From: Flavobacteriales bacterium
GTDB taxonomy: Bacteria; Bacteroidota; Bacteroidia; CAIKAF01
Direction of reading: 5' to 3'
Assembly: GCA_018401695.1 (NCBI GenBank)
Contig: JAGYKD010000001.1
Coordinates: 1,032,016-1,096,015 of the forward strand
DNA length: 64,000 nucleotides
Part shown: positions 1-12,405 of the stretch, one piece after another
How the letters are laid out: every line of letters starts with the position of its first letter
Position numbering within the stretch: position 1 is the stretch's first letter
The notes under the pieces: generated by a model
What the model was told of the DNA's origin: nothing
What the model saw: the letters and a program-made list of their open reading frames with translations, nothing else
The model's database searches: none
Made by a program: the position numbers and the translations under genes

Positions 1-155
1 GTACCTCTAGCAATAGCAACGGCTACAATTTTTCCAGCCTAAATTTCGAAAGCGACCCCAACGTTTTGCCCATTTGGATTCCTGCAGGATCTACCGTGCA
101 GACCAGTGGGCCCAACATTTTTCTTTCGGCCATCGAATTCAATATCGTACCCTAA
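1..155 (+). CDS. C-terminal end of a TVPAGKVWK-array protein (copy 1, cut by window edge)
   Basis: Only the last 50 codons are in the window (frame starting at base 3). They carry the two signatures of the family that fills the next 5 kb: LPIWIPAGST and the terminal AIEFNIVP. The stop codon TAA overlaps the ATG of the next copy (TAATG), so translation is likely coupled. The signal peptide and the VPAGKVWK segment lie upstream of the window. The function of the family is unknown to me. Confidence 0.85.
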   Translation, partial: TSSNSNGYNFSSLNFESDPNVLPIWIPAGSTVQTSGPNIFLSAIEFNIVP

Positions 156-547
156 TGCGCAAGCTTCTCCTACTTTTATTATTCGGAATTTCCTTACAGG
201 GACTTAAAGCCCAAGGTGCCAATTTAAAGTACAACCAAGCCTTATTGTTGACCAGCCAAGCCAGCGGATGCCAATCCTGTTGGACAGTCCCCTCAGGTCG
301 GGTTTGGAAAATTACGGGTGTTTCTACCAACTCCAATACCATGACCTCCATCCATTTGAATGGTCTTTCTTTAGGCTTTTTAATAGGAAGTGTCTTTACC
401 TCAAGCAGCGGCACCTATTTAAATGCTCAATATGCGGATCAAGTATTCCCGATTTGGTTGCCTGCCGGCTCAACCCTAGGTTACAGCAGCATTGGCTCCA
501 ACCGCAACATCGCTTTCTACGGCATCGAATTTTTAGAAGTACCTTAA
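155..547 (+). CDS. Small secreted TVPAGKVWK-array protein (copy 2)
   Basis: 130 aa. I chose the ATG that overlaps the previous stop because it opens directly onto a signal peptide (MRKLLLLLLFGISLQGLKAQ); the longer upstream reading would put soluble sequence before it. The mature protein has the family core: CQSCWTVPSGRVWKI, a short NG turn, FPIWLPAGSTLG and a terminal GIEFLEVP. The CxxC just before TVPSG is shared with copies 3 and 4. Predicted Sec export to the periplasm or cell surface. There is no T9SS sorting tail and no lipobox. Alternating hydrophobic residues suggest an all-beta domain. Function unknown. Confidence 0.85.
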   Translation: MRKLLLLLLFGISLQGLKAQGANLKYNQALLLTSQASGCQSCWTVPSGRVWKITGVSTNSNTMTSIHLNGLSLGFLIGSVFTSSSGTYLNAQYADQVFPIWLPAGSTLGYSSIGSNRNIAFYGIEFLEVP

Positions 548-548
548 T

Positions 549-944
549 ATGCGACGTTTTTTATGCACGTTAATCTTTGGTTTAGGACTTAGCTTGGGTG
601 CACAGGCTCAAGGAACCCTACAGTTCAATCAGGCCCTGGTGCTCACTGCACAATCTCAGGCCTCCTGCACCAGCTGCTGGACGGTTCCATCGGGTAGGGT
701 GTGGAAAATCACCGGCTTTTCTTGCAATTCCACGGGCTTGCCCTCTATGTATATAAACGGGCTCGAAGGCTCCGGCATGCTCGGCAGCTCATTTAGCACC
801 GGATCCACTAGTTATTGGGGCCCGCGGTATGGAAAGCCTACCTTCCCCCTTTGGCTTTCTGCCGGAACAACCTTGGGTTTTGCCAACGGCACTTCCGGTA
901 TGAATACCATTTTCTATGGCATTGAATTTAATATAATTCCCTAA
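549..944 (+). CDS. Small secreted TVPAGKVWK-array protein (copy 3)
   Basis: 131 aa, starting one base after the stop of copy 2. Signal peptide ends GAQAQG; the mature part opens TLQFNQALVLTAQ, then CTSCWTVPSGRVWKI, then FPLWLSAGTTLG, and ends YGIEFNIIP. It belongs to the Cys-containing short subclass with copies 2 and 4; one further Cys (FSCNS) is unique to this copy. Role unknown. The tight spacing puts it on one transcript with its neighbours. Confidence 0.85.
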   Translation: MRRFLCTLIFGLGLSLGAQAQGTLQFNQALVLTAQSQASCTSCWTVPSGRVWKITGFSCNSTGLPSMYINGLEGSGMLGSSFSTGSTSYWGPRYGKPTFPLWLSAGTTLGFANGTSGMNTIFYGIEFNIIP

Positions 945-1312
945 TGAAGCTCCTGTCACTTTTTTTATTGGCCTTTTGCCTTTCAGTTATGGCATCTGCA
1001 CAGGGAAGCTTGCAGTTTAATAAAGCCGTTTTACTAGAGGCCCATCAAAGCGATTGCGCCAGTTGCTGGACGGTACCCGCCGGAAAAGTTTGGAAAGTCA
1101 CCTCCATGAGTACCAATTCCTCTAATTTGGCCTCCATCCACGTCAATGGTTATACGCTCGGCTTTTTGTCCCGCAGCACCACCCAGTCCGAGTCGCGCTG
1201 GGTCATTGAGTTTCCCCTTTGGTTGCCGGCGGCCGCTACCATGGGCTACACCAACCTTGGCTCCAACCGCAACATCACCTTTTTTGCCTTAGAATTCAAT
1301 GTGGTGCCCTAA
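944..1312 (+). CDS. Small secreted TVPAGKVWK-array protein (copy 4)
   Basis: 122 aa. The ATG shares its first base with the TAA of copy 3. Signal peptide ends MASAQG, followed by SLQFNKAVLLEA, CASCWTVPAGKVWKV, FPLWLPAAATMGY and the terminal ALEFNVVP. It shares the tail GSNRNI with copy 2, which points to a recent duplication within the Cys subclass. It is the last copy before the GC-rich hairpin element that interrupts the array. Function unknown. Confidence 0.85.
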   Translation: MKLLSLFLLAFCLSVMASAQGSLQFNKAVLLEAHQSDCASCWTVPAGKVWKVTSMSTNSSNLASIHVNGYTLGFLSRSTTQSESRWVIEFPLWLPAAATMGYTNLGSNRNITFFALEFNVVP

Positions 1313-1325
1313 GGTTTATTTTTTT

Positions 1326-1473
1326 GGGCGGCCGGGCGGGCTGCTGCCTGCAAGTCCGCGCATCCAAACCAAGGGTGGCGGGGCCGCAGCGCCCTTCGCT
1401 AAAGCTCAGTGGCTGCAACCCTCGCCCCCCTTTGGCTTGGCTGCTTGCGGGCTTTCCGGCGCATCCCTGCCGC
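1326..1473 (+). repeat. GC-rich hairpin element R1 (constant ends, variable arms)
   Basis: A 148-bp intergenic element lying inside the array. Its left end (GGGCGGCCGGGCGGGCTGCT, then CCTGCAAGTCCGCG) and right end (TTGCGGGCTTTCCGGCGCAT, then CCCTG) match the reverse complement of element R2 at 9027-9173 almost base for base. The two also share an apical segment, TTCGCTAAAGCTCAGTG. The arms between ends and apex are unlike those of R2 but are imperfectly complementary to each other. No ORF of its own. Confidence 0.75.
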
Positions 1474-1501
1474 ATCTTCTTCCAAACACAAGTTTCTGCT
1501 C

Positions 1502-1885
1502 ATGAAAAATCTAGTCGTTTGTACCATCTTTTTGTTTGCCTTCTTCTGGGCCAACACCGGCTCGGCTCAATCCCTACAATTTAGCCGGGTAATGCTTGTC
1601 ACCAATCTGCAAACCGTGCCGGCCGGAAAAGTATGGAAGGTAGAATCGGCGATGCTTACCGGAAACCTTGGCATCAACACCGGAACAACCTCCTATCAAA
1701 CCCAATCAGCAATCATCCGTGTGGATGGCCAAAACATAAACCTTATGCACACGTTTGGCAATTCCTACGGGGTGCAATTTCAAGAACTGACTCGTCTGCC
1801 CATGTGGCTACCTGCAGGAACTACCCTAGAGCCTTCTACCAACATTGGTAAAATAAGCATCATCGAATTTACCGTTGTGCCATGA
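1502..1885 (+). CDS. Small secreted TVPAGKVWK-array protein (copy 5)
   Basis: 127 aa. I start it at the ATG that opens a good signal peptide (MKNLVVCTIFLFAFFWANTG, then SAQ); an in-frame extension upstream would read through hairpin element R1. Core: SLQFSRVMLVTN, QTVPAGKVWKVES, LPMWLPAGTTLE, IIEFTVVP. It lacks the CxxC of copies 2-4 and groups with copies 6 and 7 (SLQFS, VTN.ETVPAGKVWK). Because R1 separates it from copy 4, this copy must restart translation. Its stop overlaps the next start (ATGA). Confidence 0.83.
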   Translation: MKNLVVCTIFLFAFFWANTGSAQSLQFSRVMLVTNLQTVPAGKVWKVESAMLTGNLGINTGTTSYQTQSAIIRVDGQNINLMHTFGNSYGVQFQELTRLPMWLPAGTTLEPSTNIGKISIIEFTVVP

Positions 1886-2280
1886 AACAGCTTCTTTTTT
1901 TAGTTTTCTTAGGTTTTGGAGCTTTGCTTCATGGCCAGAGCCTTCAATTTAGCCAAGTGAAACTGGTAACCAACCAAGAAACCGTCCCCGCCGGAAAAGT
2001 GTGGAAAGTAGAGAGCGTGATTTTTAACATTCCCGCCACCACCATGCCCTTGGCCAATAGCGGAAGCGCCAATTGCAATGCCGGTCAATACCAAAACCAA
2101 GCCATCGAGGTCGACGGGGTCTTTACTAAATTGGGCGGCGCCGGAAATTCGGCCTACAATGGCTACACCGGGTATTATTATGGCACCCGTTTGCCTATTT
2201 GGCTTCCTGCAGGGGCTACGCTTTCCGGCGGACCCTGTCTCAATAAAATTTCAGTCATCGAATTTACCATAGCACCATGA
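1882..2280 (+). CDS. Small secreted TVPAGKVWK-array protein (copy 6)
   Basis: 132 aa, overlapping copy 5 by ATGA. Signal peptide ends ALLHGQ; then SLQFSQVKLVTNQETVPAGK, VWKVES, LPIWLPAGATLS and VIEFTIAP. The first 30 mature residues are nearly identical to those of copy 7. Between the two core motifs lies a variable Gly/Asn/Tyr-rich stretch of about 55 residues with two Cys. Exported, function unknown. Confidence 0.84.
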   Translation: MKQLLFLVFLGFGALLHGQSLQFSQVKLVTNQETVPAGKVWKVESVIFNIPATTMPLANSGSANCNAGQYQNQAIEVDGVFTKLGGAGNSAYNGYTGYYYGTRLPIWLPAGATLSGGPCLNKISVIEFTIAP

Positions 2281-2669
2281 AACAACTGTTAGTAGTATTA
2301 TTTTCTTGCTTTGTAGGCCTACTGCAGGCCCAAAGTCTTCAGTTTAGTCAGGTAAAACTGGTGACAAATCAGGAAACCGTCCCTGCGGGAAAAGTATGGA
2401 AGCTTAGCGGCTGTGCTTACAGCAGCAACATTTCCGGCATGATTTCCACCGGTCAGGGATCCGGAGTGTCCTCAAATTCCGACGCCCTTATCCAAATTAA
2501 TGGGCAAAACCGGGCTGTGCGCTCGGTACGGGCAGCCGGGGGGTATAACCACGCTTCAGGGGTGGTTTGGGAAACCCATTGGCCGCTTTGGTTGCCTGCA
2601 GGAGCCACCCTTTCTGCCGGAACCGGTGTGGGCGAAATCTCGGTTATTGAATTTACAGTAGTCCCATGA
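2277..2669 (+). CDS. Small secreted TVPAGKVWK-array protein (copy 7)
   Basis: 130 aa, ATGA overlap with copy 6. Signal peptide ends GLLQAQ; core SLQFSQVKLVTNQETVPAGK, then LPAGATLSAGTGVGE and VIEFTVVP. A near-duplicate of copy 6 at both ends with a different middle (QINGQNRAVRSVRAAGG). This pattern, constant frame with variable middle, is typical of the whole array. Function unknown. Confidence 0.84.
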   Translation: MKQLLVVLFSCFVGLLQAQSLQFSQVKLVTNQETVPAGKVWKLSGCAYSSNISGMISTGQGSGVSSNSDALIQINGQNRAVRSVRAAGGYNHASGVVWETHWPLWLPAGATLSAGTGVGEISVIEFTVVP

Positions 2670-3031
2670 AAAACGTTTTAATTACCCTTTGCTTTTCATT
2701 CGCGCTAAGTTTATTAGGCAAAGCCCAAGGCAGCTTGCAATTCAATCAAGTGTTGTTGCTTAGCACCAACAGCAATGCACAATCTTGGACCGTGCCTGCC
2801 GGAAAAGTTTGGAAAGTCAGCTCTGCAAGTGTAAGCGGCAATTTTAGCAGCTTTATGGCCATCGGCCTTAACGGTACTTCGTATTGGTACACGCCCAATT
2901 ATTCCGTGGACCAGGGCAGATTTTCGCTTACTTTGCCTTTGTGGTTGCCGGCCGGCACCAGCTTAAGCTTGCCTTTTCCAAACACGGTCAATCGTTTTGC
3001 GTCCGTAATAGAATTTAATGTTGTTCCCTAA
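2666..3031 (+). CDS. Small secreted TVPAGKVWK-array protein (copy 8)
   Basis: 121 aa, ATGA overlap with copy 7. Signal peptide ends LLGKAQG; core SLQFNQVLLLST, SWTVPAGKVWKVSS, LPLWLPAGTSLS and VIEFNVVP. It is the shortest full copy and has no Cys in the mature part. It bridges the short subclass and the long subclass that begins with copy 9. Function unknown. Confidence 0.84.
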   Translation: MKNVLITLCFSFALSLLGKAQGSLQFNQVLLLSTNSNAQSWTVPAGKVWKVSSASVSGNFSSFMAIGLNGTSYWYTPNYSVDQGRFSLTLPLWLPAGTSLSLPFPNTVNRFASVIEFNVVP

Positions 3032-3041
3032 ATCAAAGTAT

Positions 3042-3611
3042 ATGTGCCGTTTCCTTTTGGCCGGGCTTTTTGGCCTTTTCTCAAGTGTTGGGTTGCTTGC
3101 TCAAGGCAATTTGCAGTTCAATCAAGTATTGGTAATTAATGCGCAAAGCGGTGTGCAGACCGTACCCGCCGGAAAGGTTTGGAAGATTACTTCGCAGAAC
3201 CTCAGCGGTGGGGTGTATTACAGCAACTGGAGTAGCACCTCAAACACTACATGGTCGATTACCAACCCAAACCCATGCACTGGCGCCACATCAGGAACTA
3301 GTTCCATTAGGCAAGTCCGTAAGTATAAATGTCCGGATGCCAATAACAACCTTGTGCTCAATGGGGTAAAGACCAAGCTGGGGGAGTCCGGGCCGCTATG
3401 GTTGCCGGCAGGAGCTACCTTGGGAATTGTTGAAACCCCATGCGTTAACTCCTTAAGTCCTAATATTCCTTCAGCTACACCGTACTATTTGGAAGATAGA
3501 ACCGACCCCAACAATTTGCAGTATTACCGAGAGTGCGATGGTCCTATCAACGCCGGAGCCGTTCCCAATTCCATTCTTGTAAGTGTCATTGAATTTAATA
3601 TTGTTCCATAA
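3042..3611 (+). CDS. Secreted TVPAGKVWK-array protein, long subclass (copy 9)
   Basis: 189 aa from the ATG at 3042, which starts the signal peptide (MCRFLLAGLFGLFSSVGLLA). An in-frame ATG at 3018 would add eight polar residues and overlap the previous gene. Core GNLQFNQVLVINAQ, QTVPAGKVWKITS, PLWLPAGATLG, VIEFNIVP. Relative to the short copies it has inserts containing NPNPCTGATSGTSSIR, a second Cys (KYKCPDANN), CVNSLSPNIPSATPYY and YRECDGPINAGAVPNS. The four mature Cys recur in all long copies, suggesting two disulfides. Confidence 0.83.
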   Translation: MCRFLLAGLFGLFSSVGLLAQGNLQFNQVLVINAQSGVQTVPAGKVWKITSQNLSGGVYYSNWSSTSNTTWSITNPNPCTGATSGTSSIRQVRKYKCPDANNNLVLNGVKTKLGESGPLWLPAGATLGIVETPCVNSLSPNIPSATPYYLEDRTDPNNLQYYRECDGPINAGAVPNSILVSVIEFNIVP

Positions 3612-3613
3612 CC

Positions 3614-4180
3614 ATGGTTTACCGCTTCTTTTTTTGCTTCATGTTTTTGTTTTCCTTCGGCTTAAATGCCCAGGGAAACCTGCAGTTCAACCAAGTATTG
3701 GTGCTAAATGCGCAAAGCGGCACCCAAACCGTACCGGCTGGAAAAGTTTGGAAAATCACGGCACAGAACACCAGCGGAGGTATATATTTCTACAACTGGA
3801 GCAGCAACGATTTGGTAACTTGGTCAGTAAACAACCCCAACCCATGCAACGGAGCCACTTCTGGAACCTCTAGCGTAAGGCAGATCCGGAAAAGAAGGTG
3901 TCCGACCTCCAACAATGCTCTGGTGTTGAATGGCATAACTACAGCCTTGTCGGAGTCCGGGCCATTTTGGCTGCCGGCAGGAACCACCGTAGATATCTTG
4001 GAAACGGTTTGTTTCAATACCTTGAGTCCCAATATCCCGTCGGGAACGCCTTATTATCAAGAGGATAGGACTGACATGAGCGACATTAGGTCGTACCACG
4101 ACTGCGCCGGCCCTATCCAGGCGGGAGCCGTCTCCAACTCCATTTTAGTAAGCGTTATAGAATTTAATATTGTTCCCTAA
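3614..4180 (+). CDS. Secreted TVPAGKVWK-array protein, long subclass (copy 10)
   Basis: 188 aa, two bases after copy 9. Signal peptide ends FGLNAQG; GNLQFNQVLVLNAQSGTQTV, PAGKVWKITAQN, then the long-subclass inserts NPNPCNGATSGTSSVR, CFNTLSPNIPSGTPYY and HDCAGPIQAGAVSNS, and the end VIEFNIVP. Very close to copies 9 and 11, so duplication is recent. All four subclass Cys are kept. Function unknown. Confidence 0.85.
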   Translation: MVYRFFFCFMFLFSFGLNAQGNLQFNQVLVLNAQSGTQTVPAGKVWKITAQNTSGGIYFYNWSSNDLVTWSVNNPNPCNGATSGTSSVRQIRKRRCPTSNNALVLNGITTALSESGPFWLPAGTTVDILETVCFNTLSPNIPSGTPYYQEDRTDMSDIRSYHDCAGPIQAGAVSNSILVSVIEFNIVP

Positions 4181-4183
4181 CCC

Positions 4184-4753
4184 ATGAAATATCGTTTCTT
4201 CTTGCTTATTATGCTTTTGTTTTCTATTGGGTTGTGCGCCCAGGGAAACCTACAGTTTAACCAAGTGTTGGTTATCAATGCGCAAAGCGGCCTCCAAACC
4301 GTTCCGGCAGGGAAAGTTTGGAAAATAACTTCTTTCTACACAGGAGGAGGGGCCTATTACGGCAATTGGACCTCAAATACTACCGCCACCTGGTCTGTAA
4401 CGAACCCCAATCCCTGCAATGGAGCTACATCAGGCACTGTTAGTGTTAGGAGAATCCAAAAATTTCGATGTCCTTCAGGAAACAACCGGGTGTTGGTCAA
4501 TGGAACCGAGCTAGACATGGATGGAACCAAAGGACTGGTCTGGCTTCCTGCAGGAGCTACCCTTTCTCTTAATACAACCCCGTGCTCTAATACACTGAGT
4601 CCTGACGTGCCCGCGGCCACTCCCTATTATTTGAACGATCAAACCAACCCAAACCAATCGTTCAATTATTTTGCTTGTGACGGTGCAATCAATGCGGGAC
4701 CTGTTACAAACTCTATTGTTCTCACAGTTTTAGAATTCAACATTGTTCCTTAA
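4184..4753 (+). CDS. Secreted TVPAGKVWK-array protein, long subclass (copy 11)
   Basis: 189 aa, three bases after copy 10. Signal peptide ends GLCAQG; GNLQFNQVLVINAQSGLQTV, PAGKVWKITS, NPNPCNGATSGTVSVR, LVWLPAGATLS, CSNTLSPDVPAATPYY, ACDGAINAGPVTNS and VLEFNIVP. Same Cys pattern as copies 9, 10 and 12. Function unknown. Confidence 0.85.
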   Translation: MKYRFFLLIMLLFSIGLCAQGNLQFNQVLVINAQSGLQTVPAGKVWKITSFYTGGGAYYGNWTSNTTATWSVTNPNPCNGATSGTVSVRRIQKFRCPSGNNRVLVNGTELDMDGTKGLVWLPAGATLSLNTTPCSNTLSPDVPAATPYYLNDQTNPNQSFNYFACDGAINAGPVTNSIVLTVLEFNIVP

Positions 4754-4763
4754 GTTTGACTTT

Positions 4764-5339
4764 ATGACAACCCATGTAAGGTTCTGTATTTTATTGGCTT
4801 TAGCTTTTGCCGTAGCAAAGCTTTCCGCGCAAGGCAGTTTGCAGTTTAATCAGGTGCTACTACTTACCGCCCAAACGGGGCAGCAAACCGTGCCTGCAGC
4901 TAAGGTTTGGAAGCTTACAGCCGAGAGGCTGAGCGGAGGTTATCGTTACGGCAATCATTCGAGTAATCTTAATGTAACCTGGTCTCCAACCAACCCAAAT
5001 CCATGTACAGGAGCCACTTCGGGCACAAGCAGCGTGAGGTATTTGGGCAAGCTCCTTTGCGGCACCTCAATGAACGGGATTTTGGTAAATGGAACGCCTC
5101 TTCGGGGTAGCCAAGAGGGTGCTCTTTGGTTCCCTGCCGGAACCACCGTTTTAGTTTCGGAAACACCCTGCCAAAACACCCTAAGCCCCAATATCCCCGC
5201 AGCGACGCCCTACTATGTGTTGGACCAAACCAACCCAAACGGAAATACCGGGTATTATGAATGCGAGAGTCCTTTGAATTTAGGACCTGTTCCCAACACA
5301 CCATTATATACCGTCATAGAATTCAACATAGTTCCATAA
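4764..5339 (+). CDS. Secreted TVPAGKVWK-array protein, long subclass (copy 12)
   Basis: 191 aa from the ATG at 4764; an in-frame ATG at 4743 would overlap copy 11 and add MFLKFDF before the signal peptide. Core: SLQFNQVLLLTAQTGQQTVP, with AAK in place of AGK, then VWKLTA, LWFPAGTTVL and VIEFNIVP. It keeps the four subclass Cys. It is the most diverged long copy, with AAK and LWFP where the others have AGK and WLP. Confidence 0.83.
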   Translation: MTTHVRFCILLALAFAVAKLSAQGSLQFNQVLLLTAQTGQQTVPAAKVWKLTAERLSGGYRYGNHSSNLNVTWSPTNPNPCTGATSGTSSVRYLGKLLCGTSMNGILVNGTPLRGSQEGALWFPAGTTVLVSETPCQNTLSPNIPAATPYYVLDQTNPNGNTGYYECESPLNLGPVPNTPLYTVIEFNIVP

Positions 5340-5343
5340 CGAA

Positions 5344-5877
5344 ATGAGGGTAAGAAACAGATACATTCTTTCTTTGATTTTGGTTTTAATCGGCCTAACT
5401 TGCTGTCATCGTTCTTTGGCACAAGGAGTACCCCCTTCGGTACAAGCCAAAATAGACAGCATGCAAGCTTGGATAGCTCAGGAAGCGGAGGCCGGAAGGC
5501 CCATGGAACAAGAAGCCTTGGAGGCATGGAATCGCAGAATCCGTGCCGAACAAGACCGAATCAACACCCTCTCTGAGGCCGATAGAAAGCAAGCAGAAAA
5601 GTCTGTGGGAAGCAGGGCCGAGTTAAAGCAGTTTTCGGGAATGACAGGAACCGCTTTTACTGTTCCTTCAGGCAAAGCTTGGAAAATTCGAAGGGTTACC
5701 TGCTCGGCAGGGATGGGCGATTATCAAATTTTGGTTAAATCTATTTCCTTTCCCGACCAGCTTAGCGAGGGAGACGTGCTCCAAACCCCAAGTTTTTCGT
5801 CCGAAGCTGCTTTGGTAGCAGAAGACCAAAGCGAAATAATGTATACATTTGAAGTATTAGAGTTTGACCTCAAATAA
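5344..5877 (+). CDS. Chimeric exported protein: helical N-terminus plus a reduced TVPSGKAWK domain
   Basis: 177 aa, four bases after copy 12. Signal peptide about 1-26 (ends SLAQG). Residues about 28-90 are charged and predicted helical (PPSVQAKIDSMQAWIAQEAE onward). From about 97 a reduced array core appears: TAFTVPSGKAWKIRRV and a terminal FEVLEFDLK in place of IEFNIVP. The LPLWLPAG segment is not clear. It ends the tandem series and precedes the large T9SS protein, so it could link or anchor the array products. This is inference; function unknown. Confidence 0.8.
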   Translation: MRVRNRYILSLILVLIGLTCCHRSLAQGVPPSVQAKIDSMQAWIAQEAEAGRPMEQEALEAWNRRIRAEQDRINTLSEADRKQAEKSVGSRAELKQFSGMTGTAFTVPSGKAWKIRRVTCSAGMGDYQILVKSISFPDQLSEGDVLQTPSFSSEAALVAEDQSEIMYTFEVLEFDLK

Positions 5878-5934
5878 ACAACCAACCCTTTGTCTAAATC
5901 ACAACATAGTAAATCCACACCAAAACGCGATAGT

Positions 5935-8900
5935 ATGAAGCCAATGACTACCGGCCTGCTGCTTGTCGCCAGCTCCGCTGCCCTTATAGGGTTTGCCGGG
6001 GCAGCGCGAGGGCAACAGGTGTTCTTCAATGGCGCGTCGGTTCATGTAGAATCGGGCGCCCAAATTTATGTCCAGGGAGGGCTAACCAACCAGGGCAGCG
6101 GACAAATTACCAGCAATGGTACCATAACGCTGACCGGAGATTGGGAAAATAACGCCTCCAACAACGTATTTACGCCCGGCGATACCGGCGTAGTCGTGTT
6201 GGATGGAGCCGCCCAAACTGTGCAGGGAACAGCCCCCACGCACTTTGCCCGTCTGGTGCTCAACAACAACGCCGTTAAAACCCTTAACGTAAATGCGGTT
6301 GTTTCCGATCACTTAGACATTGACAGCTGTGAGCTGGCTTTGGGCAACGACACCCTTCATTTAACCAACCCTTCGGCCAATGCGCTCTCCTTGAGCCCTG
6401 TTGGTTTTGTAAGCAACAGTTTGAATGGAGCTTTGGTGCGTTCAACCAACTCTACAGGTACCTACCTCTACCCCATGGGTTCAACCGTAGGCACCCCTCG
6501 CTACCGTCCGGTAAACATTACACCGGCCAACGCAAACGCCAACGATTTCTCTGTAGGCTTTGTGAACAGCGACCCAAACAACGACGGATTCCTTACCAGC
6601 AACGCTCAAGCGCCTGCTTGTTGGGTAAACGATCAGTGGTATCACCATATCGGTCAGTTGACCGGATCGTCTAACGCCGACCTTACCATTGCATTTGATG
6701 ACCAACTCGATACTGTGTTTACAGGCATCGCCAACTATACTTCAAATACATGGACCGATCAAGGGAATGCCAACTTAGTGAGCAACGTTTCTCCTCAGTT
6801 GAGCACCCTCACGGCTACCGTAACCGCTTTTACGGATTTGCCTTTCGGTTTAACCATCAATACCATTCCGAGCAACATTACGCCATTGTCTTCGACCACC
6901 ATCTGCCAGGGTGACAGCGTACAGCTCGATTCTGATTTTGACCATACCATTTATACATGGCTAAGGAACGGAACCCCAATACCGGGTGTGGGTTCTTCCG
7001 ATACGGCCATTTATGCTAACCAAGCAGGTACTTACCAGCTGGTGGGCAGCAACGGCATCTGTGCCGACACCTCACAAGGCGTGGTGGTGACGGTTAATCC
7101 TTTGCCGAACCCTGCCATCAGTAATCCGGGTACGCTTTGCGCAGGTGGTAACGCCACCAACTTGAGCGCAGCTACCCCAGGTGGTACTTGGTCAGGTACG
7201 GGCATCACCAACCCTACCGCCGGAACCTTTGACCCCAACGTCTCTGGCACCGGTGCAATTCAGGTGATTTATAACGTAACAGTGAATGGCTGCTCCGATG
7301 CCGATACCACCAACATTACGGTGAATACGCTTCCGGACGCTAGCTTTACTTCTCCCGCTGTACTTTGTGATAATGGGTCCCCGGTATCTTTGACCCCCAC
7401 AAACTCAGGCGGTACTTTCCAAGGTTCAGGTGTAACTGGCAGTACATTTGACCCAACAGCTGCAGGCTCAGGATCCGTCAATGTTTCCTACATTCTTTCT
7501 GCAAACGGCTGTACCGATACCGTAACCAACACCATTACGGTAAACCAATCGCCCAACATTAGCTTTAGTGCTCAGCCTACCTTCTGTCAAAACGGACAAG
7601 CGGCTAACCTTAGTGCTACTCCAGCGGGCGGTACCTGGTCCGGAACCGGCATTACGAGTGCCAACAACGGAACCTTTGACCCATCTGTAAGCGGCGTAGG
7701 AAACTTCAACGCCATTTATACAGTTACCGACAACAACAACTGTACAAGCATCGATACACAGTCTGTGGCTGTGAATGCCTTGCCTGACCCCAGCTTTACT
7801 GCTCCGGCAACGGTGTGCGATAATGCAGGAACTATACAGTTTACGGCAACTACTTCCGGAGGTACCTGGTCTGGCAATGGTGTGGTAAACGCCAGTCAAG
7901 GAACCTTTGACCCTGCAACTGCGGGCACCGGTGTGACTCAAATTCTTTATACGGTAGACAATAACGGCTGTCAGGACACTTCATCTAGGTTTGTAGATGT
8001 ACTGCCCGCACCTAACGCTCAAATTGCCAATCAAACGGCGCTTTGCGATAACGATGGTTCTTTGAACCTAAGTGCAACGCCTGCGGGTGGCTCTTGGTCC
8101 GGAGCAGGCATCACCGACGCCGCTTTGGGAACTTTTGATCCTTCTATTGCCGGTTCGGGTGCTGCTCAAGTTACCTACACCGCTACAGCCGGACAATGTT
8201 CCGACACAGACACGTTGGATATTACCATTAATCCGGCTCCAGACGCCGTGTTTAGTGTTACCACACCACTCTGTGTAACGGACAACCCCGTGGTATTGAA
8301 CCCCAATACTTCCGGAGGATCCTTTAGCGGAACCGGTGTTAGCGGAAGCAACTTTGCTCCTGCTCAATCAGGTGCCGGTGTGTTTGATGTAGTGCATACC
8401 GTTACTGCAAATGGTTGTACCGCTGTTGACACTCAAGCCGTAACGGTTAACGACATTCCTGTTGCTGCCGGTAACATTACCTTGAACCAAGTGGGACAGT
8501 TGACCTATACTTATGACGGTACAGGAACCTTGTATGGCATTAACTACACTTGGGACTTTGGAGATGGTAACGTGGCTCAAGGAGATAGCGTTCAACATAC
8601 CTACTCTCAAAGCGGTAGCTACGATGTTATGTTGATTGTAACCAACAACTGCGGAGCCGATACCTTTATGACCAAGCTTAATGTGGTTACCGGAATTGAC
8701 GGATTTGACGGTGGCGCTGCCATTACCGTGTTCCCCAACCCATTCCAAGACATGACCAATGTAGAGATTAGCTTGACCAATGCGCAAGAAATCAATATCG
8801 AGGTATTTGACATGCTCGGACGCAAAACCGGAGAAACCGGATTTGCTAACATGCAGGCAGGCACCAACCAGGTGACCTTGCATAGTCAATTCTTTGATGC

Positions 8901-8979
8901 TTCTCGCGGCACTTACTTTGTTCATGTAGTGAACAAAGCAGGCGAGCGTTCTATTCACAAGGTGATTCGAATGAAATAA
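5935..8979 (+). CDS. Large T9SS-exported protein with six Ig-like repeats, PKD domain and sorting tail
   Basis: 1014 aa from the ATG at 5935 (signal peptide MKPMTTGLLLVASSAALIGF, cut near ARGQ); a TTG at 5890 would only add a polar leader. Residues about 25-330 form an adhesin-like region of short beta repeats and unknown fold. Six tandem repeats of about 75-80 aa follow, each with one Cys near the start and a GGTWSGTGI-like motif followed by GTFDP. Next is a PKD domain (YTWDFGDGN) and a type A T9SS tail (VFPNPF ... MLGRK ... IHKVIRMK). It sits 57 bp after the array and ends just before a terminator, so it may be the last gene of the array operon. Likely surface-attached or released. Confidence 0.85.
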   Translation: MKPMTTGLLLVASSAALIGFAGAARGQQVFFNGASVHVESGAQIYVQGGLTNQGSGQITSNGTITLTGDWENNASNNVFTPGDTGVVVLDGAAQTVQGTAPTHFARLVLNNNAVKTLNVNAVVSDHLDIDSCELALGNDTLHLTNPSANALSLSPVGFVSNSLNGALVRSTNSTGTYLYPMGSTVGTPRYRPVNITPANANANDFSVGFVNSDPNNDGFLTSNAQAPACWVNDQWYHHIGQLTGSSNADLTIAFDDQLDTVFTGIANYTSNTWTDQGNANLVSNVSPQLSTLTATVTAFTDLPFGLTINTIPSNITPLSSTTICQGDSVQLDSDFDHTIYTWLRNGTPIPGVGSSDTAIYANQAGTYQLVGSNGICADTSQGVVVTVNPLPNPAISNPGTLCAGGNATNLSAATPGGTWSGTGITNPTAGTFDPNVSGTGAIQVIYNVTVNGCSDADTTNITVNTLPDASFTSPAVLCDNGSPVSLTPTNSGGTFQGSGVTGSTFDPTAAGSGSVNVSYILSANGCTDTVTNTITVNQSPNISFSAQPTFCQNGQAANLSATPAGGTWSGTGITSANNGTFDPSVSGVGNFNAIYTVTDNNNCTSIDTQSVAVNALPDPSFTAPATVCDNAGTIQFTATTSGGTWSGNGVVNASQGTFDPATAGTGVTQILYTVDNNGCQDTSSRFVDVLPAPNAQIANQTALCDNDGSLNLSATPAGGSWSGAGITDAALGTFDPSIAGSGAAQVTYTATAGQCSDTDTLDITINPAPDAVFSVTTPLCVTDNPVVLNPNTSGGSFSGTGVSGSNFAPAQSGAGVFDVVHTVTANGCTAVDTQAVTVNDIPVAAGNITLNQVGQLTYTYDGTGTLYGINYTWDFGDGNVAQGDSVQHTYSQSGSYDVMLIVTNNCGADTFMTKLNVVTGIDGFDGGAAITVFPNPFQDMTNVEISLTNAQEINIEVFDMLGRKTGETGFANMQAGTNQVTLHSQFFDASRGTYFVHVVNKAGERSIHKVIRMK

Positions 8980-8991
8980 GCAGAAAGCTTT

Positions 8992-9026
8992 AAAAAAAGC
9001 CCGGCCTTTGGCCGGGCTTTTTTTTT
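8992..9026 (+). terminator. Intrinsic terminator after the array/T9SS gene
   Basis: AAAGCCCGGCC, loop TTT, GGCCGGGCTTT followed by a run of T: a perfect GC-rich stem with a U-tract 12 bp after the T9SS gene stop. It is the first strong terminator seen downstream of the array, which supports co-transcription from the array through 8979. Confidence 0.9.
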
Positions 9027-9173
9027 GCGCCAGGGATGCGCCGGAAAGCCCGCAAGACTCCCTGCTTAGGGCTGTGAGGCTTTGGGTCACTGAGCTTTAG
9101 CGAAGGGAGACCAAAGACCACAGCCCTTAGCAGGGAGCCGCGGACTTGGAGGCAGCAGCCCGCCCGGGCGCCC
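9027..9173 (-). repeat. GC-rich hairpin element R2 (inverted relative to R1)
   Basis: Reads in the opposite orientation to R1. On the minus strand it starts GGGCGCCCGGGCGGGCTGCT and ends TTGCGGGCTTTCCGGCGCAT. Its own arms, CTCCCTGCTAAGGGCTGTGG and the complement CACAGCCCTAAGCAGGGAG, are near-perfectly paired but unrelated in sequence to the R1 arms. The apex shares TTCGCTAAAGCTCAGTG with R1. It lies directly between a terminator and the TetR promoter. Confidence 0.78.
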
Positions 9174-9242
9174 TAATGTTAAATAGCCATAAAACCTAGG
9201 AAACTTTTTTGGTTACCGGGGTTTCCGTGGCGAATATCCTAG

Positions 9243-9254: not shown

Positions 9255-9878
9255 GTGAACGACCCAAAATTTGTACGAATCCTGGAAGCGACCACGCATC
9301 TTTTTCTGCGGTACGGTCTTAAAAGCGTTACTATGGATGACGTTGCGCGCGAGTTGGGCATTTCCAAGAAAACCCTGTATGTGCATTTTAAGGACAAAAA
9401 GCACTTGGTACTGGCCACCATCCAACATTATGTAAAGAACCACAAAAAGTGCATAGATGACACCTTAGCCGAAGGAGGCAATGCCATAGACCGATGGTTT
9501 CGTATTGCGCGCTTGGTAACCGAAGACATGAGCGAAATGAAGCCAACCATTTATTTCGATTTGCGGCGCTACTATCCTCAGGCCTTCCAATATTTTGAGC
9601 AATTTCGGAACGGCGAGATTTTGGCCATGATAAAGCAAAATTTGAGCAGAGGAAAAGAAGAGGGCTTGTACCGTGCCGATTTGGACGTGGATGTGGTGTC
9701 GCGTTTGTATGTGAATATTATTCCACTTACCATGAATCCGGAGGTGTTCCCCTCCGCTCAATATCCTTTTATTAAACTATACTTTGAGGTGTTTCGCTAC
9801 CACGTCCGCGGCATTGCCAGCAAGGAAGGTTTGGCTTACCTCGATCATCATTATAAGAATCCGGAAGTGATATCCTAA
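9255..9878 (+). CDS. TetR/AcrR-family transcriptional regulator
   Basis: 207 aa from a GTG start; the DNA-binding domain begins almost at once, so a later start would cut it. Residues about 5-60 form the TetR helix-turn-helix (YGLKSVTMDDVARELGISKK, then TLYVHF). The rest is the helical ligand-binding and dimerisation region, with no recognisable specificity. It lies 8 bp upstream of the outer-membrane factor of a complete RND efflux set on the same strand, the usual place for a repressor of the pump. Co-transcription implies it also controls itself. The ligand is unknown. Confidence 0.9.
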   Translation: MNDPKFVRILEATTHLFLRYGLKSVTMDDVARELGISKKTLYVHFKDKKHLVLATIQHYVKNHKKCIDDTLAEGGNAIDRWFRIARLVTEDMSEMKPTIYFDLRRYYPQAFQYFEQFRNGEILAMIKQNLSRGKEEGLYRADLDVDVVSRLYVNIIPLTMNPEVFPSAQYPFIKLYFEVFRYHVRGIASKEGLAYLDHHYKNPEVIS

Positions 9879-9886
9879 ACAAACGC

Positions 9887-11239
9887 ATGAAAACGCTTAT
9901 GAAACCATCGACGTTTTTTGGCTTATTGAGCCTTATGGCGTGCAGCTCGCTTGGAGCGCAACAGCAATTTAGTCTGCAAGATGCGTATACCTATGCCCTA
10001 AAGCATAATGCCAATGCGCTGAATGCAGGAACAGAAGTTGAGATTGGCAAACAGCGCATCACCGAGAATGTCGCTACAGGGCTGCCTCAAATATCGGCCA
10101 ATGCCAATTACAGCTACAATATTGAATCTCCGGTGTTTATTTTTCCGGACTTTATCAATGGAAATCCGGATGAGTTTACTACCATTCCAGCGGCTCCTTT
10201 AAACCAAGCGGTAATTGGGGTGAATGGATCCATGCTGCTTTTTAATGGTCAGTACTTCATAGGGATTGCCACGGCCAAGCAGTTTTTAGAGCTAACCCGA
10301 AACCAAAAGGCGCAAACCGAGCGCGATGTACGTTTCCAAGTAGCACAAACGTATTTTTTGTGTTTAGTGTCCGAAGCATCGCTTCGGACTTTGGATTCCT
10401 CGCTCCAAGTGTTAATGAAAAACGTGGAGGAAACTAAAGCCTTGTATACTCAAGGTTTTGCCGAAGATTTAGATGTAGAACAGCTGGAGCTTATTCTTGC
10501 CAATACCAAGGATGCCAGAATTCAGGCCGACAATGCCCGTAAACTTGCCTATGCTACTCTAAAATTTCAAATGGGATTCCCTGCCCAAGAAGAAATTAGC
10601 CTGACCGAAAGCTTGGAGTCTTTGTTAAATTTAGGGGGCTTTTCGGGCCTGGTTCCCGGGCTAAAAGACACCTTTGAAGTAAAGCAACGTTTGGAATACC
10701 AAATTATGAGCCAACAGTTGGCCATTAATGAGTACCAAATTAAACTGCAAAAGGCCGAGGCGCTGCCCAGTTTGAGTACCAGCCTAGGCTACCAATACAA
10801 CCTGTTCAACAACGACCGCTTTTTGGCAGGTTCGGGTACGGTTGGCGCCCAGGGTGGACTGGTTTGGGGGCTGAATTTGCAAGTCCCTATTTTCTCTAGC
10901 TGGAACCGCATGTCTAAACTTAAGCAGTTGCAGTTGGAGCGCGAAAAAGTATTGAGGCAACAAGCTTACCTAGAGCAAGGATTGCAGGTCGATTACCTAA
11001 ATGCCCGAAACCAGGTAATGGACAACTTTCAGCGTTTTCAAAATAGAGAAAGAGGCTTTGAATTGGCCAAGAAAATTCGACAGGTGAATGGCCTTAAATA
11101 CAAAGAAGGCCTTATTACCAGCCTGGAATTATCTCAGTCCGAACAACAGTTGTTCGATGCGCAACAATCTTATTATCAGGCTTTATTTGACCTGCTGAAC
11201 AGCAAGGCGGCGCTAGATAAAGCCATGGGTACTTTTTAA
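9887..11239 (+). CDS. TolC-family outer membrane efflux protein
   Basis: 450 aa with an N-terminal signal; SLMACSS could be a lipobox and GAQQQ a signal peptidase I site, so the processing is uncertain. Two repeats of alpha-helical and beta regions typical of outer membrane factors are visible, with long helical stretches (RFQVAQTYF, TKALYTQG-like, SQSEQQLFDAQQSYYQALFD) and the C-terminal LLNSKAALDKAMG. Expected to form a trimeric outer-membrane channel and periplasmic tunnel for the adaptor and pump encoded next. Middle gene of tetR-OMF-adaptor-pump. Confidence 0.92.
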   Translation: MKTLMKPSTFFGLLSLMACSSLGAQQQFSLQDAYTYALKHNANALNAGTEVEIGKQRITENVATGLPQISANANYSYNIESPVFIFPDFINGNPDEFTTIPAAPLNQAVIGVNGSMLLFNGQYFIGIATAKQFLELTRNQKAQTERDVRFQVAQTYFLCLVSEASLRTLDSSLQVLMKNVEETKALYTQGFAEDLDVEQLELILANTKDARIQADNARKLAYATLKFQMGFPAQEEISLTESLESLLNLGGFSGLVPGLKDTFEVKQRLEYQIMSQQLAINEYQIKLQKAEALPSLSTSLGYQYNLFNNDRFLAGSGTVGAQGGLVWGLNLQVPIFSSWNRMSKLKQLQLEREKVLRQQAYLEQGLQVDYLNARNQVMDNFQRFQNRERGFELAKKIRQVNGLKYKEGLITSLELSQSEQQLFDAQQSYYQALFDLLNSKAALDKAMGTF

Positions 11240-11268
11240 TCTTCTTTTAACGCACTAATTCTTTGTTT

Positions 11269-12405
11269 ATGAAACGTATGGTACGATTGGCTTCCTTGGG
11301 CATGGCCTTGGTTTTGCTTGCCTGCAACTCTCCTTCGCCTTTGGAGCAGAAAAAGGAGGAGCTTAAGCAGCTTAAGGCCCAGATGGCAGAGCTGAAAACC
11401 CGGATTTCCGGTTTGGAAGAAGAAGTTGCCACACTAGATACCGGCGCCAATCAAGGGCTAAAAACTCGTTTTGTGAGTGTAGAGGAGGTGAAGCGAGGCA
11501 CTTTTAGGCACTTTATTGAGGTACAAGGCTCGGTAGAAGCCGACAACAACGTGCTGGCAACTCCAGAACAACCCGGAGTTATTACCGGAGTTTTTGTAAA
11601 AGAAGGTGACCATGTAAACGCCGGACAGCTTTTGGCAGAACTGGAGAATACCGCCATTAAGCGCTCTTTGGACGAAGCCAAAACCGCCCTTGAGCTCGCC
11701 GATGAAACCTATAGACGCACCAGCAAGCTATGGGAGCAAAAAATAGGTTCGGAGCTGCAGTATTTGCAGGCCAAAAGCAACTTCGAAGCCATGCAGCAAA
11801 GGGTTAAGACTCTGGAAGCACAAATAGATATGACACGAATCGAAGCTCCTGTTTCAGGTACTGTCGATGCCGTGCTGCTTAAACCGGGCGAAATGGCTAG
11901 CCCTGGATTGCATGGGGTGCGTGTGGTAAATCTAAAACACCTTAAAATTGTGGCTCCTGTTGCCGACGCCTTTGTAGGTAGTGTAAAAAAAGGACTCCCG
12001 GTAGAGGTGCGTTTCCCCGACCTCAATTTGGTCATGCAAAGGCAAGTGAGCTTTGTGAGCAGGGTGGTAGACCCCGGAAACCGGTCGCTCAGCGTAGAAG
12101 TAGATCTAAGCGATTGCGACTGTGCCATTCGCCCCAACATGGTGGGAAGTCTGCACATCAACGATGTAACCCTAGACTCTGTTTTGCAGGTGCCCTCCAA
12201 TCTGGTGCAAAACTTGAACAACGATACCTATATTATGACTGTAGCCACAGCCGAAAACGGAGTCCTAATGGCCAAAAAAGTGCCTGTGGAAACCGGCATG
12301 CAATACGATGGAACTATAGTGGTAAAAAGCGGCCTTACCGAAGGACAGCAAATCATTACCGCCGGGAGTAGCGAAGTCGTAGACAACCAACCTATAGAAT
12401 TTTAA
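11269..12405 (+). CDS. RND efflux periplasmic adaptor (HlyD/MFP family), lipoprotein
   Basis: 378 aa from the ATG at 11269; an in-frame TTG two codons earlier is less likely. Lipobox LLAC puts the lipidated Cys at residue 19. Residues about 24-55 are a charged coiled coil. The biotinyl-lipoyl-like and hairpin regions follow (GVFVKEGDHVNAGQLLAELE; coiled coil about 125-190; RIEAPVSGTVDAV), then the beta-barrel and membrane-proximal domain. It bridges the inner-membrane pump and the TolC-like channel. The acidic-coil N-terminus is common in Bacteroidota adaptors. Confidence 0.92.
   Translation: MKRMVRLASLGMALVLLACNSPSPLEQKKEELKQLKAQMAELKTRISGLEEEVATLDTGANQGLKTRFVSVEEVKRGTFRHFIEVQGSVEADNNVLATPEQPGVITGVFVKEGDHVNAGQLLAELENTAIKRSLDEAKTALELADETYRRTSKLWEQKIGSELQYLQAKSNFEAMQQRVKTLEAQIDMTRIEAPVSGTVDAVLLKPGEMASPGLHGVRVVNLKHLKIVAPVADAFVGSVKKGLPVEVRFPDLNLVMQRQVSFVSRVVDPGNRSLSVEVDLSDCDCAIRPNMVGSLHINDVTLDSVLQVPSNLVQNLNNDTYIMTVATAENGVLMAKKVPVETGMQYDGTIVVKSGLTEGQQIITAGSSEVVDNQPIEF

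Follow-up and report, generated by a model that had tools for sequence, protein, structure and literature searches.

We analyzed a window of 64,000 nucleotides from a Flavobacteriales bacterium (contig 1, positions 1032016 to 1096015, in a genome of 2.99 Mb), the left edge of which cuts into a tandem array of genes for small secreted proteins with a predicted jelly-roll fold (here called the jelly-roll family). We found the array to be the middle part of a conserved three-part locus, in which a stalk gene, the array of head genes, and a closing gene follow one another and the stalk protein ends in an apparently specific C-terminal tail. In our judgment, the chances are about even that the locus encodes a split surface fiber, i.e., a stalk carrying a C-terminal docking peptide together with separately encoded jelly-roll heads. 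We base this on what was observed of the gene order, the co-occurrence of the parts, the exclusivity of the strict tail, the conservation of the locus, the purifying selection on the array, and the predicted fold, and we file the locus as a variant of the stalk-and-head arrangement with an undescribed head family.

The tagged stalk gene lies outside the window, so it was invisible to the original prediction made from the window. Its open reading frame (ORF) spans 6535 to 7056 of locus L009 with a likely start at 6598; in window numbering, with negative positions upstream, it runs from −3465 (likely start −3402) to −2944 on the plus strand. The product is a secreted, collar-like protein with the C-terminal end GGGGGQGGDPTLVYTVDGF; in PHROGs it matched phrog_1325, of unknown function (E = 1.7e-8), and weakly a tail family (0.0027). 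The stalk C-terminus approximates the consensus T-L-[IV]-Y-T-x-D-G-F-COOH after a Gly/Ser linker, and similar endings precede the arrays of other genera. Among 94 fetched loci, some of them overlapping and all chosen for carrying the jelly-roll family, 41 ORFs had the tail motif, and 40 of these had a same-strand family gene downstream; the exception, in L096, had no family gene in its fetched locus DNA. When the tagged proteins were reduced to 36 distinct ones, a family gene was found at most 100 bases downstream in 32, at 432 to 433 bases in 3, and not at all in 1, compared with 11 of 491 other mechanical ORFs of at least 150 amino acids that had a family gene at most 100 bases downstream. 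The tail residues in these 36 proteins were T in 32, L in 36, Y in 35, D in 31, G in 36, and F in 36, a pattern partly imposed by the search motif, and the linker before the tail was rich in G, S, A, and N. Counting unnamed handles apart, there were up to 55 family assemblies, with a tagged stalk in 36, the closing gene in 29, and both in 21, their contigs often being cut.

Because the loci had been fetched for the jelly-roll family, a fair test of the tail is a genome-wide one. A strict DNA pattern of the tail matched 6 of 395 genomes sampled from the class (G005, G006, G008, G009, G222, and G356), once in each, and a pattern with V also allowed matched 1 of 390 genomes drawn from the phylum, namely the genome of the window, again once. 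All seven genomes carry the jelly-roll family, and the match always lies at most 85 bases before a family copy, while a reversed pattern used as a control gave no match in either draw. Five of the seven belong to one genus, which leaves three independent lineages, and the phylum draw serves mainly as a negative control, the genome of the window being the sole family match in such a draw. The tails of this genome and of its nearest congener, G007, escape the strict pattern because of V; the variants that escape it include TLVYTVDGF, TLIYTTQGF, and TLIYLSDGF.

The tagged proteins look like stalks. Collagen-like runs of 9 to 96 triplets, with proline in a third of the triplets, were found in 23 of the 36 distinct proteins, and Pfam Collagen matched three of the six that were scanned (E = 6.6e-32, 4.1e-25, and 3.4e-50). 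Stalk and head also occur fused: a single ORF of L083 joins a stalk-type N-terminal domain (YQAAVRN, by eye) to a jelly roll (E = 3e-5), and one of L131 joins a jelly roll to a collagen-like repeat (E = 2.5e-7). Nine further proteins combine a circularly permuted jelly roll, with the C-terminal half first, and a Gly-rich part, for which Pfam Gly_rich_2 gave an E value of 1.2e-8 in the one protein scanned. Three of them come first after a tagged stalk (L077, L085, and L129), and those of L127 and L128 have no tagged stalk in their fetched locus DNA. Four congeners have a Gly-rich protein of 453 to 454 amino acids inside the array (Gly_rich_2, E = 1.1e-29 in the one scanned). At L057, L058, L060, and L052, family copies lie on both strands around the tagged stalk, and a second fiber-like protein is encoded upstream of it; its coiled-coil-like C-terminal tail presumably resembles an endosialidase-type chaperone.

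The original prediction had described a tandem same-strand array of about a dozen copies plus one chimera. The array is real, and 12 ORFs of the family on the same strand overlap the window, the first truncated by its left edge; in the whole genome, the array comprises 18 full same-strand copies and the closing gene, which is what had been taken for a chimera. It starts 2923 bases before the window, where the upstream DNA holds six further complete copies and the remainder of the copy cut by the edge. As had been predicted, the genes are tightly packed, with 17 of the 18 array junctions being overlaps or gaps of at most 11 bases: six are 4-base overlaps (ATGA), three are 1-base overlaps (TAATG), eight are gaps of 1 to 11 bases, and one is a gap of 189 bases. 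A putative signal peptide for each copy was borne out likewise, since a hydrophobic N-terminus ending in (A/G)Q was seen in 18 of 18 copies by inspection and with a text pattern.

All copies are on the plus strand. Copies 1 to 6 lie upstream of the window at −2923 to −2429, −2417 to −1998, −2001 to −1606, −1602 to −1069, −1069 to −680, and −683 to −294, and copy 7, starting at −297, has only its 3′ part in the window (1 to 155). Copy 8 (155 to 547) encodes a jelly-roll protein of 130 amino acids with a signal peptide and overlaps copy 7 by TAATG, followed by copy 9 (549 to 944; 131 amino acids) and by copy 10 (944 to 1312; 122 amino acids), which has a TAATG overlap with copy 9. The sole long gap of the array, 1313 to 1501 (189 bases), separates these from copy 11 (1502 to 1885; 127 amino acids) and from copies 12 (1882 to 2280; 132 amino acids), 13 (2277 to 2669; 130 amino acids), and 14 (2666 to 3031; 121 amino acids), each with an ATGA overlap. 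The last four are long variants: copy 15 (3042 to 3611; 189 amino acids), with large inserts and four Cys, copy 16 (3614 to 4180; 188 amino acids), copy 17 (4184 to 4753; 189 amino acids), and copy 18 (4764 to 5339; 191 amino acids). The long gap contains an interspersed repeat with a 151-base match at 75% identity at 9026 to 9176 of the window on the minus strand; it has 12 matches in the genome including itself, 10 of them just about 34 to 65 bases long. No RNA family reached its gathering score in the array locus, and no internal signal can be claimed from the scans of the locus for promoters (16 promoter-like sites versus a mean of 10.4 in shuffled sequences) or terminators (13 terminator-like sites versus 14.9).

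The copies share a constant frame around a variable middle, as had been anticipated, with a paralogue identity of 34% in the signal peptide, 67% in the frame, and 23% in the middle. An alignment of 20 members (the 18 array copies and two unlinked ones) had a mean column identity of 31%, with Q, L, T, W, K, G, W, E, F, and a final P being invariant, including the W and K of TVPAGKVWK, the W of LPLWLPAG, and the E and F of IEF. The likeness among the copies is beyond chance, since copy 14 as a lone query retrieved 16 of the 17 other copies at E ≤ 2e-4 and the remaining one at 0.006. A profile of the 20 rows scored the array copies, themselves part of it, at E values of 9e-44 to 3e-22 and found six family loci outside the array in the same genome, two of them part of the profile and one, at C1:585231-586199, with two family domains within one ORF. 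The mature array proteins are near neutral, with 38 to 49% S/T/N/G/Q and 0 to 8 Cys.

That the proteins belong to no described family held up in Pfam, PHROGs, NCBIfam, and PDB sequences for the copies scanned. Matches in Pfam, PHROGs, and NCBIfam were at chance level for the jelly-roll proteins scanned (all 20 members in the case of Pfam), the best E value among eight proteins scanned against PHROGs being 0.068, and the family profile found nothing significant among the PDB sequences (best E = 0.13). The Pfam families C1q, TNF, and BclA-C gave no row for 20 proteins at E ≤ 5, a level at which the HMMER filters remove most very weak matches, and DUF4183 had no Pfam match in the scanned family proteins. 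With family matches at chance level only, identity as a toxin, enzyme, or transporter was rejected. The literature held in PubMed Central (PMC) under open licenses yielded no paper on the TVPAGKVWK motif, the stalk tail, Bacteroidota jelly-roll arrays, or Bacteroidetes collagen-like jelly-roll proteins; one listed paper concerns the Legionella collagen-like protein.

Single-chain AlphaFold2 models predicted an all-beta jelly roll. For copy 14, the mean predicted local distance difference test score (pLDDT) was 86.4, with a helix at residues 2 to 20, the signal peptide, and then eight strands; the long variant of copy 15 (mean pLDDT 84.2) was all-beta after the signal peptide. In a second structural comparison, nucleoplasmin cores came top for copy 14 (Z = 8.4, root mean square deviation [rmsd] 2.9, 86 aligned residues), followed, among others, by phage cement proteins (Z = 6.9), GITRL (6.7), the C1q family (6.1), and BclA (5.8), with C1q/TNF folds at Z scores of 5.5 to 6.7; the best Z score of copy 15 was 7.9, and its best PDB match in Foldseek had an E value of 0.12. 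The match to C1q/TNF folds is not specific, as the nucleoplasmin rows outscore it, and identity with the nucleoplasmins was itself rejected because the top Z score is near the level that the tool flags as possibly a mere common arrangement. Foldseek against predicted viral proteins gave three matches for copy 14 (E = 5.8e-4 to 9.5e-4, template modeling scores 0.33 to 0.51), one of them named an uncharacterized Caudovirales protein, and none of 81 pattern stretches in viral contigs was confirmed as a jelly-roll relative. A prophage or phage-tail origin of the jelly rolls was rejected in view of the lack of a sequence relative in PHROGs or viral contigs, the weak viral fold matches not being decisive. 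We read the predicted fold as a generic small antiparallel jelly roll, found in many unrelated families and by itself not decisive for function.

In the genus of the window, each of the six genomes searched (that of the window included) holds 28 to 42 profile matches; among 10 genomes of five other genera of the same taxonomic family, one had a match, a single one. In searches that scored ten candidates per genome, the jelly-roll family had matches in 26 of the 395 class genomes (19 of the 196 genera), the weakest at E = 7e-4 and a few being weak and partial, and in the genome of the window alone in a phylum draw of 395. The nearest congener, G007, has 18 copies and the closing gene in the same order, with all gaps equal, the 189-base gap included, except one (3 versus 2 bases). 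The other four congeners have 18 to 22 copies in a related order, the largest array having 22.

The copies are old, individually kept, and functional, with one-to-one orthologues in the nearest congener. A tree of 115 copies was built from 143 columns, with 73 of 112 inner branches well supported and a warning from the tool of meeting long branches. In it, the number of changes needed by each species' label equals the number of its copies, 16 of the 18 copies of the window's genome are sister to their G007 counterpart (counted manually from the printed tree), and there are five clades with good support in which each of six species is represented by exactly one copy. The ratio of nonsynonymous to synonymous substitution rates (dN/dS) between this genome and G007 was 0.04 to 0.27, with a median of 0.09, in 18 of 19 pairs, one not being computable and many dS values being near saturation. 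Identity between these orthologues was 69% in the signal peptide, 95% in the frame, and 84% in the middle, and a stop codon interrupts a single copy (L116, 8984 to 9352) among the 116 of the six arrays. The ratios, the orthology, and the conserved middles indicate that the copies are neither decayed duplicates nor fast-switching variants. The decay into silent duplicates that the original prediction had allowed for is thus excluded, and of the ligand- or phage-facing diversity it had suggested, the constant frame with differing middles stands and fast variation does not. Concerted evolution or cassette switching was excluded because the copies of each species are scattered through the tree. 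Between the array at L009 and that of the nearest congener at L115, the proportion of synonymous differences (pS) ranged from 0.21 to 0.86 depending on the gene, a hint of patchwise recombination.

The closing gene (5344 to 5877, plus strand) encodes a protein of 177 amino acids with a signal peptide, a helix-like stretch noted by eye, and a divergent domain containing TVPSGKAWKIRR. It is a conserved, separate gene: its group has 29 distinct members in the fetched loci, of which 25 start −14 to 31 bases after a family copy, 2 lie 115 and 415 bases after one, and 2 weak members (L084 and L088) are elsewhere, upstream of a stalk. The helix-like stretch is present in some members only.

If the locus encodes a split fiber, the product of the first gene, upstream of the window, would be a secreted stalk or collar with a flexible linker at its C-terminus, terminated by the docking peptide T-L-[IV]-Y-T-x-D-G-F. 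To this peptide, the 18 different small secreted jelly-roll proteins would attach as heads, either one at a time or, on a trimeric stalk, as trimers, and their loops, which differ from head to head, may bind ligands. The protein from the closing gene, a diverged relative that has a helix-like stretch in addition, would probably be a constant accessory or base component. Physical docking, the trimers and their stoichiometry, the surface position, and ligand binding are the parts that we infer. More tentatively, and with the balance somewhat against it, the system may be a cellular combinatorial fiber, in which a universal C-terminal socket peptide and about 20 individually conserved heads provide many fixed specificities from one operon, with the permuted Gly-rich-tipped relatives as alternative heads for the same socket.

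Steps of this kind have precedents in known systems, which show them to be possible. In the exosporium of the Bacillus cereus group, a collagen-like trimeric filament, BclA, is joined by a short terminal peptide to a separately encoded jelly roll, BxpB (ExsF), residues 20 to 38 of BclA forming stable complexes with BxpB trimers (PMC10470788). In that system, an N-terminal peptide attaches to a jelly roll at the base, whereas in the present locus the peptide is at the C-terminus and would carry jelly rolls as the tip, with up to 22 copies per array; a profile search of PDB sequences and Pfam gave no sequence relation of BclA-BxpB to the array proteins. F-ENA pili with F-Anchor and F-BclA likewise combine collagen-like proteins with short hook peptides in the clefts of trimeric all-beta heads, the N-terminal hooks of the subunits docking on trimers and the collagen-like tip being modeled likewise (PMC11952670, a preprint). 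F-ENA subunits polymerize by their own N-terminal hook, however, and most proteins of the array family lack such an extension. The long tail fiber of T2-type phages has a gp37 stalk trimer and, as a separately encoded tip protein, gp38, which carries hypervariable loops and glycine-rich motifs (PMC12892980). Some array relatives similarly have Gly-rich tips behind a tagged stalk, and the gp37/gp38-like gene order is found in the 32 of 36 tagged proteins with a head gene at most 100 bases downstream, but here there is an array of heads, the genes are cellular and encode signal peptides, and there is no confirmed relative on viral contigs. The C1q/TNF-like proteins share a collagen-like stalk and a jelly-roll head, and their folds appear in the second structural comparison; here, head and stalk are in separate genes, and Pfam C1q, TNF, and BclA-C are not matched.

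Several observations weigh against a split fiber. Collagen-like runs are absent from the six stalks of the window's genus, which look like short fiber collars, and of the 26 class genomes with the jelly-roll family, 20 were not matched by the strict tail pattern. Among 82 multi-copy runs in the fetched loci, a same-strand tag was found at most 700 bases upstream in 36 and none in 24, the locus edge being too near in 22; among 31 single-copy runs, the corresponding numbers were 1, 26, and 4. Many of the multi-copy runs without a tag belong to a locus that has one, where they form a second or divergent block, and others, in L071, L074, and L095, have no same-strand tag in the locus. Jelly rolls can thus also exist without an adjacent stalk. 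The genome of the window has six family loci outside the array versus a single occurrence of the tail pattern. Por_Secre_tail was absent from the 20 members scanned with Pfam and from the closing protein, no sorting domain being recognized, and Foldseek against the PDB gave no match at E ≤ 0.001 for copies 14 and 15, whose fold is a common one. One unlinked single copy of this genome (L010, 4155 to 4577, minus strand) lies behind a 503-amino-acid Gly-rich, fiber-like protein (4885 to 6396, minus strand) that lacks the C-terminal tail.

The strongest rival, which we nevertheless hold to be unlikely, is that the jelly-roll proteins assemble into a heteropolymer (a pilus, fibril, or coat) for which the tagged protein serves as the anchor or the tip. 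The tandem, tightly packed genes kept in six species would suit it, and the second structural comparison lists Ena appendage subunits (7a02_A, Z = 6.2; 8pdz_A, Z = 6.2; 9t3p_A, Z = 5.8) and the spore-coat protein ExsFA (7r5i_A, Z = 5.6, rmsd 4.0, 93 aligned residues), the Ena rows for copies 14 and 15 overall having Z scores of 5.2 to 6.2 and rmsd values of 3.3 to 5.3 without a PDB match in Foldseek at E ≤ 0.001. The collagen-like F-ENA tip protein, moreover, has a hook peptide of the subunit kind (PMC11952670). However, at most three residues separate the end of the signal peptide from strand 1 in 362 of 466 matched proteins (53 being unmatched), so most lack a terminal hook, and the polymer or coat of fixed stoichiometry that the original prediction had drawn from the coupling of the genes is not supported in that form. 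The tail, too, was found on stalk-like proteins and on no jelly-roll ORF, and a single polymer made of 18 subunits with middles just 23% identical would be out of the ordinary.

It is improbable, we think, that machinery encoded elsewhere reads the nine-residue tail as a signal for export, sorting, or processing and that the stalk and jelly-roll proteins share an operon without ever touching. Sorting signals, too, typically sit exactly at the C-terminus behind a flexible linker, and the downstream neighbor of the array is a type IX cargo, but a general signal would be expected on several proteins of a genome and also where the family is absent, whereas the strict pattern occurs once per matching genome, in family genomes only, and adjoining the family only. 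It is quite doubtful that the cells release the jelly-roll proteins as free lectins or decoys, directed at glycans, phages, or predators, and that the stalk is just one partner among several: the six loci outside the array without the strict tail pattern nearby and the composition of the mature proteins given above would agree with it, but the order behind a stalk is kept in many assemblies, and purifying selection and slowly changing middles between species do not fit a phage arms race.

The type IX cargo just mentioned is a secreted protein of 1014 amino acids (5935 to 8979, plus strand) that carries a PKD domain and, for type IX secretion, a Por_Secre_tail domain (E = 5.5e-9). In G007, G006, and G009, a comparable ORF comes after the array, the contigs of G005 and G008 stopping short of this place, and the protein is a candidate member of the system. 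Farther downstream, at 9255 to 12405, a TetR-like regulator, a TolC-like outer membrane protein, and a membrane-fusion protein lie in a row, which by their look we take to be an efflux operon. Elsewhere in the genome, beside the two-domain family member, an ORF that we take to be REP-type transposase-like (L125, 233 to 1417, minus strand; G000 C1, about 583730 to 584920) adjoins ORFs of a repeated SYGAGRGFAPMELQRFR-like unit.

If the split-fiber reading is true, the locus would represent an undescribed surface-display system with a simple plug peptide in mostly uncultured, little-studied Bacteroidota, many of whose family records bear lake names, as read from the record titles. It would account for a protein family that lacks annotation and has matches in 26 of the 395 sampled class genomes, provide a natural docking pair of peptide and jelly roll, and be a cellular counterpart to the exchangeable tips of phage fibers. 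The tail also makes the stalk genes recognizable from their sequence, which are otherwise hidden among generic collagen-like or fiber-like annotations.

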